In this document: in pieces, positions 3,451 through 8,634 of the stretch
Layout of the letters: the number at the start of each line of letters is the position of its first letter
Position numbering within the stretch: position 1 is the first letter of the stretch
DNA from: Amycolatopsis bartoniae
GTDB taxonomy: Bacteria; Actinomycetota; Actinomycetes; Mycobacteriales; Pseudonocardiaceae
DNA length: 64,000 nt
Direction of reading: 5' to 3'
NCBI RefSeq assembly: GCF_014191255.1
Contig: NZ_JACHWH010000001.1
Span: forward strand, 2,356,001-2,420,000
Program-made: the position numbers and the translations under genes
Notes under the pieces: generated by a model
The model's input: only the letters and a program-made list of their open reading frames with translations
Database searches by the model: none
Told to the model about the DNA's origin: nothing

Positions 3451-4125
3451 GTGGACGAGACCCTGGCCCGGGCGGGCATCTTCCAGGGGGTCGAACCGGC
3501 CGCGGCCGAGGCGCTCGCGCAGACCTTGGAGACCGTGGAGTTCCCCCGGGGTCACGTGATCTTCACCGAGGGCGAACCGGGCGACAAGCTGTACATCATC
3601 CTGTCCGGCAAGGTCAAGATCGGCCGGAAGTCCCCGGACGGGCGCGAGAACCTGCTGTGGATCGCGGGACCGTCCGACATGTTCGGCGAGCTGTCGATCT
3701 TCGACCCGGGGCCGCGCACGTCGAGCGCCACCACGGTGACCGAGGTGCGCGCGGTGACGATGGACCGCCCGTCGCTGCGGAAGTGGATCTCGACCCGGCC
3801 GGAGATCGCCGAGCAGCTGCTGCGGGTGATCGCGCGCCGGTTGCGCCGGACGAACAACATGGTCGCCGAGCTGATCTTCACCGACGTGCCCGGCCGGGTG
3901 GCGCGCGCTCTTCTGCAGCTGGCGCAGCGCTTCGGCAGCCAGGAGGCCGGCATCCTCCGGGTCACCCACGACCTGACGCAGGAAGAGATCGCGCAGTACG
4001 TCGGCGCGAGCCGCGAGACGGTCAACAAGGCCCTCGCCGACTTCGCTCACCGAGGCTGGCTCCGCCTGGAAGGCAAGTCCGTCCTGATCCTGGACCCAGA
4101 ACGCCTAGCCCGCCGCGCCCGGTAG
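3451..4125 (+). CDS. crp: Crp/GlxR-family cAMP-responsive transcription regulator
   Basis: 224 aa from the GTG at 3451, preceded by GAGGAGG at 3439-3444; this matches the length of M. tuberculosis Crp (Rv3676). An upstream in-frame ATG at 3436 overlaps the ribosome binding site and is not preferred. The N-terminal cyclic-nucleotide fold has the phosphate-binding cassette [18 protein letters not shown]. The C-terminal winged helix contains [20 protein letters not shown], the DNA-recognition element of the family. The protein acts as a homodimer that binds TGTGA-type palindromes and globally controls carbon and respiratory genes. Its context between the nth operon and the metallo-beta-lactamase operon is conserved in mycobacteria apart from the insertion that follows here. 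Confidence 0.96.
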
Positions 4126-4620: not shown

Positions 4621-5850
4621 ATGTCCCAGTCCGTCTCCCTCGCCGACTACCGTGCTGCCCTGACGACCCCCGGTTCCACCCGGCCCCTGGTCGCGTCGTT
4701 GCTCGCCCGCCTGCCGATCGCGATGATCGGTCTCTCGGCGTTGCTGTACGTCCAGCGGGAGACCGGCTCGTTCGCCGCCGCGGGGCTGGTGTCCGCCGGG
4801 TCGCTGGTGGGTGTCTCCGCCGGGTCGGTGGTGCAGGGCAGGCTGATCGACCGGTTCGGCCCGACGCGCCCGCTGCTGGTGATGGTGGTGCTGTTCGCGC
4901 TCGCGATGGCGGGGCTGACGCTGGCGATCGAGGCGCACGCGGCGACGCCGCTGCTCGTCCTGCTCGGCGGCGGCATCGGGATCACGGAGCCCATGGTCGG
5001 CTCGGCGTCCCGGGCGTTGTGGGGCAGGCTGGTCGCGGTGGAAGGCGTGCGCAACGCCGCCTTCTCGTACGAGGCGATCAGCATGGAGGTCTTCTTCATC
5101 CTCGGTCCCGGCCTGGCCGGGCTGCTGGTCGCCGCGCCGTGGCCGGGTACGGGCATGATCGCGGGTTCGGTCTGCATGATCGCCGGCGGCACGCTGTTCG
5201 CGCTCAGCCCGGCCGTCCGCGCGTGGGGTTCGGCGCCGGCCGGCGGACGGCGGTCGCTGCTGGGCGCGCTCGCGGGTCCGGGCATGCGCACGCTCGCGCT
5301 GGCGGCGCTCGGGTTCGGTGTGGTGATCGGGTTCGTCGAGGTGGCGGTGCCCGCGGCGGCGACGGAGGCGGGCAGGCCGGAGCTGGGCGGGGTGCTGCTG
5401 TCGGCTTGGTCGGTCAGCTCGGTGGCCTTCGGTATCGCGTTCAGCCTGCGCCCGTGGCCGCGGGCGATGTCGTTGCGGCTGCCCACGCTGCTCGCCGCGT
5501 TCGGGCTGCTGGTGGCGTTGCTCGCGCTGCCGTCGAGCCTGTGGGGCCTGGCGCTGGCGATGCTCGTCGCGGGCGCGATGATCACGCCCCAGTCGGCCAC
5601 CCACTCGGCGGCGATCGAGCTGGTGGCCCCCGAGGGCACGGCGGCGGAGGCCTTCGGCTGGGTCCTCACGGCGGTGACGCTCGGGCTCGCGTTCGGCCAG
5701 TCCGTGAGCGGCTACCTGGTGGAGCACGCGGGCCCGTCGGCGTCGTTCCTGGCGGCGAGCGCGTCGGCACTGGTGGTCGCCGCGGTGGTCTGGCTGCTGC
5801 GGCACACCGTCCAGCAGCCCGCGCCGTCGCGCGAAGAGGCGCTGGTCTGA
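4621..5850 (+). CDS. Major facilitator superfamily transporter
   Basis: 409 aa, about 12 hydrophobic segments, with no large soluble domain. The loop GRLIDRFGPTRPLL between helices 2 and 3 matches the MFS motif A pattern (GxxxDRxGxR). ATG at 4621 is chosen; an open extension upstream would cross the inverted-repeat operator. A paralogue with similar architecture lies at 24511-25695: compare SYEAISMEVFFILGPGLAG here with SLDSISLEASFMVGPAAG there. MFS proteins of this kind usually export small molecules by proton antiport; the substrate cannot be read from sequence. Not part of the mycobacterial gene order. Confidence 0.85.
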   Translation: MSQSVSLADYRAALTTPGSTRPLVASLLARLPIAMIGLSALLYVQRETGSFAAAGLVSAGSLVGVSAGSVVQGRLIDRFGPTRPLLVMVVLFALAMAGLTLAIEAHAATPLLVLLGGGIGITEPMVGSASRALWGRLVAVEGVRNAAFSYEAISMEVFFILGPGLAGLLVAAPWPGTGMIAGSVCMIAGGTLFALSPAVRAWGSAPAGGRRSLLGALAGPGMRTLALAALGFGVVIGFVEVAVPAAATEAGRPELGGVLLSAWSVSSVAFGIAFSLRPWPRAMSLRLPTLLAAFGLLVALLALPSSLWGLALAMLVAGAMITPQSATHSAAIELVAPEGTAAEAFGWVLTAVTLGLAFGQSVSGYLVEHAGPSASFLAASASALVVAAVVWLLRHTVQQPAPSREEALV

Positions 5851-5851
5851 T

Positions 5852-6655
5852 TCAGAACCGCGGTTCGTTCTCCACGTGCACCACGTTCCCCGCGGGTCCG
5901 TAGGTGAGGACCGTGCCTTCCCAGCGGCCGAAGTCGAGCCCTGCACCGGCCGATCCGACGGTGTAGAACTGCGTCGCCGTCGAGGCGCGCACGAACGTGT
6001 CCAGCAGCTGCGCCATCCGAGAGCAGAACACGTTCCCGTCGCCCGGTCCCGGTGCGATGAACGCCACCGAGCAGGAGAACAGGTCCACCCCGGCGACGAA
6101 CTGGCCGCGGAGCACCGACAGCACCGCGAGGTTGGCGAGCGTGAGGTTCTCCCGGCAGAACTGGACGAACGCCGCCCGGCCGTGCGCCATCAGCTTGAGC
6201 CGCACTGGATCGGCGGTGTGCGCGACCGTGTCGGCCGCGCTGTCGAGGAAGAACTGCAGCGGGGTGTCGAAGTTGACCTCGATCACGGTGTCCCCGGCCG
6301 GCCGGTTCCCCTGCAGCCGGACGTCGCGGTACACCAGCCGGTGGGGCCGGAACGCGCCGGCACCGGCGACCGTTTCGTCGGGAAACGCGTCCGGGGCCAC
6401 GAAGAACCCCTTCAACGCCCGGAAGGTCACCTGACCGGGTTGGACGAGGCCGTCCTCGAACCCCAGCTGACTCCGTTGGAACTGCCGGATCGCGGCGACG
6501 GTCTTCGGGCCGACCAGCCCGTCCACGTCCAGCTGCGGGTCCGGGCCACCGGACCCGGGATCGACGTGGTTCAGCAACATCTGCACCGTGAAGACGTCGT
6601 CACCGTCGTTGGCGCCGCCGTTCCCCACGCTCGCGGACAAGTCCCTGACCGACAT
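5852..6655 (-). CDS. Peptidoglycan-binding-like domain fused to unknown domain with possible His/Cys dyad
   Basis: 267 aa, no signal peptide. Residues ~15-80 match the PG_binding_1 helical fold (DVFTVQMLLN...DGLVGPKTVAAIRQFQRSQ). The remaining ~180 residues are unfamiliar. They contain RLKLMAHGRAAF (His-Gly) and, about 40 residues later, GVDLFSCSVAF. This spacing and setting resemble the catalytic His and Cys of clan CD (caspase-like, CHAT or DUF4347) folds, but that is only a motif-level suggestion. The gene is 12 bp downstream of a second PG-binding protein on the same strand, so the two are probably co-transcribed. Its 3' end abuts the convergent MFS gene. Confidence 0.7.
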   Translation of the reverse strand: MSVRDLSASVGNGGANDGDDVFTVQMLLNHVDPGSGGPDPQLDVDGLVGPKTVAAIRQFQRSQLGFEDGLVQPGQVTFRALKGFFVAPDAFPDETVAGAGAFRPHRLVYRDVRLQGNRPAGDTVIEVNFDTPLQFFLDSAADTVAHTADPVRLKLMAHGRAAFVQFCRENLTLANLAVLSVLRGQFVAGVDLFSCSVAFIAPGPGDGNVFCSRMAQLLDTFVRASTATQFYTVGSAGAGLDFGRWEGTVLTYGPAGNVVHVENEPRF

Positions 6656-6667
6656 GGCGGTCTCCTT

Positions 6668-7789
6668 TCACTGCCCGAGTGCGCGCCAGGTGTTGGGGCC
6701 GACGACGCCGTCGACCGCGAGCGCCGCGCGACGCTGGAACTCGCGGACGCGGGCGTCCGTCGCCGGCCCGAACTGTCCGTCGACGGCGATCGGCGTGAGT
6801 TCCGGCATCCGGGCGTTGAGCAGGCGTTGCAGCTTGCGGACCGCCGGACCCGCCGAGCCACGACGCAGGGTCGGCGTACCGGCCGCGTTCTCCTCCGCCT
6901 GAGCGGTACCGGGGTCGGGCGCTTGCCCGGTGAGCGCTGCCCACGTCCTCGGGCCGACGATCCCGTCCACCACCAGCCCGGTCCGCGACTGGAACTCCCG
7001 GGCCCGTCCCTCCGTCGCCGGCCCGAACTGCCCGTCCACGGCGATCGGGACGAGGTCGGTCAGGCGGGCATTGAGCAGGCGTTGCAGCTTGCGGACCGCC
7101 GGACCCGCCGAGCCACGACGCAGGGTCGGCGTACCGGCCGCGTTCTCCTCCGCCTGAGCCGAGGTCTCGGCCGGAGTGGGCGCCGAGACCCGCACGTCGA
7201 GGTACAGGCCGTATTCGCCGTAGTCACCACCGTCGTCCCGGCCACTGAGAATGATCACGTCGGTCCAGGCCAACGACCTCGGATCATCCGGGCGGGTGAG
7301 GGTCCGTCGCCGCGAGTCCGCCTGTAACAGCGCGTCCGCGGGGAGCGCGGCGGCCTGGGGGTTGTAGATGTCGTTGCTGATGCCGAGGACACCCGCGCCG
7401 AAGTTGACCAGTCCACGGGCCAACAGGTCGATCAACGGCGCGGCGGCTGCCCCCAGCCCGGCTGTGTACGCCGCCAAGGCGGTCGTGATCGCGGCCGCGG
7501 CGGCGTCCGCGAGGACCTGTTTCTCCTGTTCCACGTCACCCGAGTCGAACTCCGCGAGCGTCGCGACCAGCCCGAGGTCCTGCGGGGGACCCGAGTACAG
7601 GAGCGCCTGCATCGTGTGGATCCGCTGCCCGTCCGGCCCCATCCGCAGGTAACCGGAGTCGGGGAACTTCAGGGCGGGATGCGGTTGTCGGTCCGCCGAC
7701 CCCACCTGCACGCTGCCGTAGATCTCGTCTTCGCTCTCCTGCCGCACGCGGCACTCGAGACCCGTCGCCCAGACTTCCACCCGGCTCAT
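6668..7789 (-). CDS. Protein with novel N-terminal domain and two tandem peptidoglycan-binding-like domains
   Basis: 373 aa; ATG at 7787-7789 has a strong ribosome binding site (AGGAGGGGCG), which excludes the longer frame. No signal peptide. Residues ~1-205 are a single unrecognised domain with a DEIYGSV strand region and an Ala-rich helical central hairpin (AAAAAITTALAAYTAGLGAAAAPL), ending in VIILSGRDDGGDYGEYGLYL. Two PG_binding_1-like repeats follow, each with GSAGPAVRKLQRLLNAR and IAVDGQFGPAT. They are joined by a linker that also repeats (AQAEENAAGTPTLRR). At DNA level 89 bp are identical between the repeats. Its neighbour at 5852 carries the same kind of binding domain, suggesting the two proteins act together. 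Confidence 0.75.
   Translation of the reverse strand: MSRVEVWATGLECRVRQESEDEIYGSVQVGSADRQPHPALKFPDSGYLRMGPDGQRIHTMQALLYSGPPQDLGLVATLAEFDSGDVEQEKQVLADAAAAAITTALAAYTAGLGAAAAPLIDLLARGLVNFGAGVLGISNDIYNPQAAALPADALLQADSRRRTLTRPDDPRSLAWTDVIILSGRDDGGDYGEYGLYLDVRVSAPTPAETSAQAEENAAGTPTLRRGSAGPAVRKLQRLLNARLTDLVPIAVDGQFGPATEGRAREFQSRTGLVVDGIVGPRTWAALTGQAPDPGTAQAEENAAGTPTLRRGSAGPAVRKLQRLLNARMPELTPIAVDGQFGPATDARVREFQRRAALAVDGVVGPNTWRALGQ
6816..7159. repeat. 89-bp exact direct repeat within a coding region
   Basis: Positions 6816-6904 and 7071-7159 are identical and exactly 255 bp (85 codons) apart, in frame. They encode the end of the linker and the start of each PG-binding repeat. Flanking parts of the two units have diverged, so this is either a recent partial duplication or gene conversion. 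Confidence 0.9.
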
Positions 7790-7869
7790 CGCCCCTCCTG
7801 ACCGCGTTCGCTTCGTTGCGAATGCCCGGTTAGTCGGTTTGGGAGCCGAAACGTAACAAGATCCCGGTT

Positions 7870-8634
7870 TCAGTCCCCCGAGCGCAGGTAGTCGAGCTGG
7901 GCTCGGACGCTGTGCTCGGCCGGGGCCCACAGCTCCTGGTCGATGTCGGCGTAGACGTGCTCCACCACCTGGCGCGGGGTGGCGTCCTCGCCGAGCACGC
8001 TCAGTGCACGACGCACCTGGTCGAGCCGTTGCTCGCGGTGGTCGAGGTACTCCTGCGCGGTCGCCTTGAGGTCGGGCAGCTCCGGACCGTGCCCCGGCAA
8101 ACCCCGTTGTCCGGCGGGCAGCTCGACCAGCCGGCGTAGCGAACGCAGGTACGAACCGAGGTCGGCGAGCACCGTCGTGCCGCGGCCGAGGATCGTGTCA
8201 CCCGTCAGCACGTGGCCTTCCAGCCGCAGACACACCGAGTCCGCCGTGTGGCCGGGCGTGTGCAGGACCTCCAGCTCCAGACCCGCCGCCGAGACGACCT
8301 CCCCGTCGGTCAGCGCGCCCGCGTCGCGGCACAGCTCCTGGTCGAACGCCCGCACCGGCGCACCCGTCCGCTCGGCGAGCCACGGCGCGCCTTCGCTGTG
8401 GTCGGTGTGGTGGTGGGTCAGCAGGATCAGCGCGACCGGGCCCAGCTCCGCGAGCTTCGGCAGGTGGTCGAGGTCGTGGTAACCAGGGTCGACGAGCACG
8501 CTCTCGGCGGCGCCGGGCGCCCGCAGCACCCACGTGTTGGTGCCTTCGAGCGTCATCATGGACGGGTTGTTCTCCAGCAACACCGACGCCACCGGGGACA
8601 CCTGCCGGAGCTCGCCGTATGCGGGGTGCGTCAT
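7870..8634 (-). CDS. Metallo-beta-lactamase-fold hydrolase
   Basis: 254 aa. The zinc site HHHTDH (HxHxDH) is followed by HTPGHTADS, LTGDTIL and GLPGHGPEL, the ordered metal ligands of the fold. The N-terminus (NPSMMTLEGTNTWVL) and C-terminal helical tail resemble the LACTB2/RNase-like group, and the positional equivalent is Rv3677c. The ATG overlaps the stop of the upstream Nudix gene (ATGA). The substrate is unknown; members include nucleases, thioesterases and glyoxalase II-like enzymes. Cytosolic, as no signal is seen. It is the last gene of the 7870-11849 operon. Confidence 0.9.
   Translation of the reverse strand: MTHPAYGELRQVSPVASVLLENNPSMMTLEGTNTWVLRAPGAAESVLVDPGYHDLDHLPKLAELGPVALILLTHHHTDHSEGAPWLAERTGAPVRAFDQELCRDAGALTDGEVVSAAGLELEVLHTPGHTADSVCLRLEGHVLTGDTILGRGTTVLADLGSYLRSLRRLVELPAGQRGLPGHGPELPDLKATAQEYLDHREQRLDQVRRALSVLGEDATPRQVVEHVYADIDQELWAPAEHSVRAQLDYLRSGD

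Follow-up and report, generated by a model that had tools for sequence, protein, structure and literature searches.

A small insertion in Amycolatopsis bartoniae encodes two leaderless PG_binding_1 proteins, one of them with a DUF4347-like, putative clan CD peptidase domain

Caspase-like C-terminal toxin domains and PGB1 domains are both published components of toxin proteins, and the majority of the caspase-like domains in polymorphic toxins are regarded as releasing peptidases, as far as the available portion of the source goes (PMC3482391). In the accessible parts of three further papers, caspase-like domains are presented as effectors of bacterial conflict systems (PMC7159879), a peptidoglycan-binding domain is reported in 68 predicted toxins linked to extracellular contractile injection systems (PMC11297309), and PA0256, a putative antibacterial T6SS toxin, is said to contain DUF4347, a domain that is called uncharacterised there (PMC8262886). 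Among the papers listed, no title or beginning of an abstract describes a protein that combines PG_binding_1 with DUF4347.

A candidate for such a protein is encoded in a window of 64,000 nucleotides (the whole stretch of DNA that was analysed) from Amycolatopsis bartoniae, where two adjacent minus-strand genes, P0001 and P0002, are separated by an intergenic gap of 12 nt. The parts of this unit are known and their arrangement looks new; the mechanism set out below is a proposal only. Set against the polymorphic toxins, as described in the available part of PMC3482391, the unit is similar in its exchangeable modules, its PGB1 domains and its predicted caspase-like C-terminal domain, but no trafficking domain or repeat region was recognised in it, and inspection by eye revealed no immunity gene. 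A plasmid protein of Deinococcus taeanensis (WP_225523316.1) also combines a peptidase with PG_binding_1 and has no obvious leader; unlike P0002, it carries a true Peptidase_C14 domain at its N-terminus and PG_binding_1 near its C-terminus, and a profile comparison of the two proteins aligned the PG_binding parts alone. A subtilisin-family protein (L112:46-3291) on the Cupriavidus oxalaticus plasmid NZ_CP038636.1, again with no obvious leader, resembles P0002 in pairing a peptidase with a related terminal PG_binding domain, but is a serine peptidase (S8) of ~1080 aa with two PG_binding domains at its end.

The original prediction had placed the two-gene unit correctly (Table 1) and had assigned PG_binding_1 domains to both products, which also held. 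P0001 has two copies (E 9e-35; 119.1 bits over two stretches) and P0002 one (E 1.3e-5; 25.7 bits), above the PF01471 cut-off of 23 bits, below which the two orthologues of P0002 fall (15.5 bits for L002 and 20.2 bits for L003). It had further stated that neither protein has a signal peptide, and none is obvious in either, as judged from the first 40 residues by eye and from a Kyte-Doolittle scan; both proteins are therefore probably cytosolic. A purine-rich ribosome-binding site precedes the ATG of each gene, and a terminator and promoter scan gave nothing useful. The GC3 of the two open frames is 0.87 and 0.92, compared with 0.91-0.94 in four neighbours. The PADLOC models, a library of described systems only, gave no match to the unit at E<=1.

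Table 1. Features of the two-gene unit and its surroundings, in positions of the window.
Feature	Position	Strand	Remarks
P0001	7789..6668	-	373 aa; orphan N-terminal domain, then two PG_binding_1; leader not obvious
Ribosome-binding site of P0001 (AGGAGG)	7794..7799	-	
P0001 N-terminal domain, residues 1-205	7175..7789	-	no family match
Ala-rich stretch of P0001, ~residues 86-137	7379..7534	-	probable helical hairpin; best 19-residue hydropathy 1.56
PG_binding_1 repeat 1 of P0001 with linker, residues 211-287	6929..7159	-	
PG_binding_1 repeat 2 of P0001 with linker, residues 296-372	6674..6904	-	tandem copy
P0002	6655..5852	-	267 aa; PG_binding_1 head and DUF4347-like domain; leader not obvious
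Ribosome-binding site of P0002 (AAGGAG)	6662..6667	-	
P0002 head, residues 1-85	6401..6655	-	PG_binding_1 subtype common to other leaderless proteins
P0002 C-terminal domain, residues 86-267	5855..6400	-	DUF4347-like, probable clan CD cysteine peptidase
His158 (MAHG)	6182..6184	-	predicted to be the catalytic His; a beta strand precedes it
Cys195 (FSCSVA)	6071..6073	-	predicted to be the nucleophile; the next strand in sequence precedes it
Insertion	~5849..7879	.	flanked by MFS and beta-lactamase-fold genes; missing in three relatives with empty sites

Comparison with empty sites in three relatives (G008, G015, and G006) indicates a gain of ~2.0 kb: on the left, homology ends at ~5848 (in G015 this limit is less sharp), and on the right it begins again at ~7880. 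The added DNA contains P0001 and P0002 only, and is best read as a recent, horizontally acquired insertion. The unit had been thought to interrupt the conserved crp region; crp is indeed a neighbour, which ends at 4125, but the insertion itself is one gene further on, with the MFS gene that follows crp on one side and the beta-lactamase-fold gene on the other. These two flanking genes are convergent. The junction was surveyed in 20 stretches (17 from the same genus and three from the same family) taken from 40 relatives, and both flanking genes were present in 16 of them. In half of these 16 informative relatives the MFS and beta-lactamase-fold genes nearly abut, with <70 nt between match ends, and in the other eight the junction holds other DNA of 0.36-4.4 kb. 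Neither the P0001 N-terminal domain nor P0002 was detected in any of the 20 stretches at E<=1e-8. The other inserts contain SDR-, LysR- and AIR-synthase-like genes (by eye), and the junction therefore appears to be a general variable spot.

With regard to the C-terminal domain of P0002, DUF4347 (PF14252) was the sole Pfam match when the domain was scanned alone at E<=10, both in P0002 and in its two orthologues (E 0.0032, 0.0033, and 0.0016), although the three matches are not independent, since the proteins share 76-78% identity. The match covers residues 143-228 of P0002 and thus spans both His158 and Cys195. The scores lie below the curated (gathering) cut-off of 24.6 bits, at 17.6-18.6 bits for the C-terminal domain alone and 16.4-18.6 bits over all protein scans; P0002 also departs from DUF4347 in that its domain follows a PG_binding_1 head within a small, leaderless product. 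DUF4347 was absent from all four scrambled controls: three were shuffles, and the fourth, a reversal, gave an unrelated match at E 0.2. At the genome level, a DUF4347 search at E<=0.01 gave no match in the genome of A. bartoniae. None of 197 genomes of the class held a match over the cut-off, and the one match at E 0.0082 contains an in-frame stop and was left uncounted.

The two motifs to which the original prediction had drawn attention, LMAHG and then FSCSVA, are present as His158 and Cys195, 37 residues apart. MAHG and FSCSVA are identical in both orthologues, which says little at 76-78% identity. In a shuffle test, the real domain failed a first motif definition that 913 of 20,000 shuffles passed; it passed a second definition, tuned after the sequence had been seen, as did 231 of 20,000 shuffles. 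The His/Cys dyad by motif alone is therefore weak evidence; it is the DUF4347 profile match, and to a lesser degree the structure model, that sets it apart from chance. In DUF4347 proteins, an HG motif and one of GCNVA type stand at the positions of MAHG and FSCSVA in P0002.

The model of the C-terminal domain is of moderate quality (pLDDT 60.4, pTM 0.60), and two of five models exceed a pLDDT of 50. In it, a strand at 68-72 is followed by His73 and a strand at 105-109 by Cys110 (domain numbering; H158 and C195 of the protein), which would fit the clan CD order. The same His-strand-Cys order occurs in the clan CD families C11 (clostripain) and C80 (the cysteine protease domains of MARTX and clostridial toxins), and one C11 and four C80 chains are among the VIA-align rows, aligning over 123-141 residues at 4.2-4.5 A. 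Foldseek returned no match at E<=0.001; its top rows are nitrilases (best E 0.011, listed rmsd 6.7-14.6 A, query TM <=0.35), a family to which the domain has no Pfam match. There is no clear winner in the two lists, clan CD chains being present and nitrilases heading the Foldseek rows. Pfam, NCBIfam, and PHROGs scans detected no wall-cleaving domain in this part of P0002. A model of full-length P0002 built from three sequences reached a pLDDT of 35.9, PG_binding region included, and is uninformative on fold. Of what was originally proposed by eye, a clan-CD-like domain is moderately supported by DUF4347 and the model, and the dyad by motif alone is weak evidence. The domain is a predicted cysteine peptidase, probably of clan CD, with Cys195 as the nucleophile and His158 as the base.

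The head of P0002 is an exchangeable module, found on proteins with other C-terminal parts. A leaderless Terrarubrum protein has a head 50% identical to it over 80 residues and a remainder without similarity, and a stand-alone 129-aa Streptomyces protein shares 44% identity with it over 77 residues. The last PG_binding domain of the Cupriavidus subtilisin is related to it as well (50% over 44 residues, E 8e-4). A search of phages with the head gave 307 records at E<=0.1, and most of the 20 listed are lysins. Three other loci (L107, L108, and L109) encode leaderless PG_binding proteins of ~130 aa. Behind each comes a similar-looking gene of 239-264 aa, for which no Pfam match was found in the single one scanned; in L108, the upstream neighbour of 1221 aa has a weak PG_binding_1 match as well. 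A 464-aa Streptomyces frame (L111:2992-4386) resembles P0001 in layout: it combines an unrecognised N-terminal part with a very hydrophobic stretch, and its PG_binding_1 match is slightly below the cut-off.

Neither Pfam and PHROGs (E<=10) nor the PDB (E<=5) gave a match to the N-terminal domain of P0001, in line with the earlier description of a ~205-residue unrecognised domain in the upstream protein. The domain is absent from the plasmids, phages, and viral contigs searched. Genome searches gave matches in 3/394 and 3/200 genomes (own included) and in 4/199, but those outside the genome of A. bartoniae were judged by eye to be chance (four NmrA-like frames and other unrelated frames), and once these are set aside the 394, 200, and 199 genomes contain no relative beyond the domain itself. 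Within it, the Ala-rich stretch noticed in the original prediction is present; its hairpin form is a reading of the sequence. The best 19-residue hydropathy is 1.56 and the second half is amphipathic, and the stretch is probably a helical hairpin. The two PG_binding_1 repeats that follow share 191 of 231 nt, the initial 89 nt without a difference, which makes one of them look like a recent copy.

The distribution of P0002 is patchy. An exact-peptide scan of genome contigs found two full-length relatives, both from Streptomyces, with 76 and 78% identity; one belongs to Streptomyces WAC 04229 and the other to a metagenome-assembled genome. A search of 150 genomes, own included, gave matches in ten, namely A. 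bartoniae itself, eight PG_binding-only cases (query residues 12-98), and an HNH-like frame in G133 that is unrelated by eye, and thus no further full-length relative. Within Streptomyces, 11 of 295 genomes matched, once over the full length (G578, which is WAC 04229) and ten times within the N-terminal part alone, never beyond residues 5-138. The C-terminal domain was found in 2/394 genomes of the class, one of them its own and the other a chance match to an ATPase-like frame, unrelated by eye. P0002 had no match in viral contigs.

The two genes do not stay together in the genomes of the two orthologues. The P0001 N-terminal domain was found in neither genome that has a P0002 orthologue, where P0001 finds PG_binding matches only, and the gene upstream of the orthologue in WAC 04229 is a different small one, whose 149-aa product has a weak CarboxypepD_reg match. 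The domain and P0002 were not found together outside the genome of A. bartoniae. The pair is therefore not conserved among the two orthologues, although the absence counts less in the metagenome-assembled genome. This tells against the original prediction, in which a sensor-effector pair was one reading and which had named a lack of conservation of the gene pair as evidence against it.

Homologues of the CarboxypepD_reg-like gene were found in one plasmid record and in 5/101 Streptomyces genomes, WAC 04229 included. At four of the six Streptomyces loci (L002:435-884, L096, and L102-L105), the next gene on the same strand encodes a leaderless hydrolase, which is of the P0002 type, a trypsin joined to endonuclease I, an SNase, or an Amidase_2; the other two have ordinary genes there, which by eye are RsgA- and LigA-like. 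On the Streptomyces europaeiscabiei plasmid, an eCIS_core (DUF4157) protein (L096:954-2324) is encoded near the CarboxypepD_reg-like and trypsin-endonuclease genes. The contractile sheath profile PF04984 had no match in the genome of A. bartoniae, one in that of WAC 04229, and none in the metagenome-assembled genome.

The reading preferred here, with a probability of about 0.42, is that of an acquired unit of leaderless wall-binding proteins in which P0002 is a peptidase effector and P0001 its exchangeable partner. Briefly, both proteins would accumulate in the cytosol and leave the cell by lysis or by another signal-peptide-independent route, which is assumed because no leader is obvious and the genome has no sheath gene. 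The PG_binding_1 domains would then dock them on the peptidoglycan of the same cell or of a neighbour, where P0002 may cleave proteins at or in the wall; P0001 would be a co-docking partner.

Leaderless hydrolases with PG_binding_1 are typical of phage endolysins, and the C-terminal domain of P0002 could instead cut peptidoglycan itself (amide or peptide bonds) in the manner of an endolysin or autolysin, with PG_binding_1 as the anchor and P0001 aiding access to the wall, e.g. by a membrane-active hairpin. The lysins among the phage matches of the head agree with this, as do the top Foldseek rows, which are nitrilase-superfamily amidases with a Cys nucleophile, and the one CarboxypepD_reg-like homologue that precedes Amidase_2. 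However, the domain matches no known wall-hydrolase family and its listed nitrilase alignments are poor, the P0001 N-terminal domain has no phage or viral-contig match and P0002 no viral-contig match, and an insertion of two genes only provides no phage context. Because nitrilases head the Foldseek rows and the plan of the protein is endolysin-like, a wall hydrolase is retained as a doubtful alternative.

An intracellular role, in which wall material freed into the cytosol would unleash a caspase-like protease and its hairpin partner and bring about cell death, is less probable still. The genes are leaderless and tightly coupled, the Deinococcus caspase carries PG_binding_1, and caspase-like domains serve as conflict-system effectors according to the available part of PMC7159879; this reading is weakened by the lack of conservation of the pair, by an insertion limited to two genes without a PADLOC match, and by the occurrence of the head without a protease and, in related form, on a subtilisin. 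It is also quite improbable that the DUF4347-like domain cuts P0002 or P0001 and so frees a fragment, as C80 does in large toxins. The C80 chains among the structural rows and the releasing role mostly ascribed to caspase-like domains in the available part of PMC3482391 would suit self-processing, but in P0002 the domain is C-terminal in a small protein and nothing lies behind it to be released. A similarly small chance is given to passing cargo, a small insertion without lasting function. The variable junction, nearly empty or occupied by other inserts in the informative relatives and without the unit in all 20 stretches, favours it; both frames are open, with a GC3 close to that of the neighbours, and the orthologues keep P0002 full-length at 76-78% identity, which argues against it.

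Returning to the wall-docking peptidase effector, a wider version would place the unit in an undescribed class of leaderless conflict proteins that dock on the wall, in which one type of PG_binding_1 head would be joined to interchangeable hydrolases (clan CD, subtilisin, and perhaps nucleases and amidases), each with a swappable small partner, the hairpin domain of P0001 being one such partner. Such a class is unlikely on present evidence. If P0002 works as a peptidase, its small size and tractability would make it suitable for testing whether DUF4347 is a clan CD protease. The head subtype, should it mark a family of leaderless effectors that dock on the wall, would serve as a search handle for others and for their exit route.
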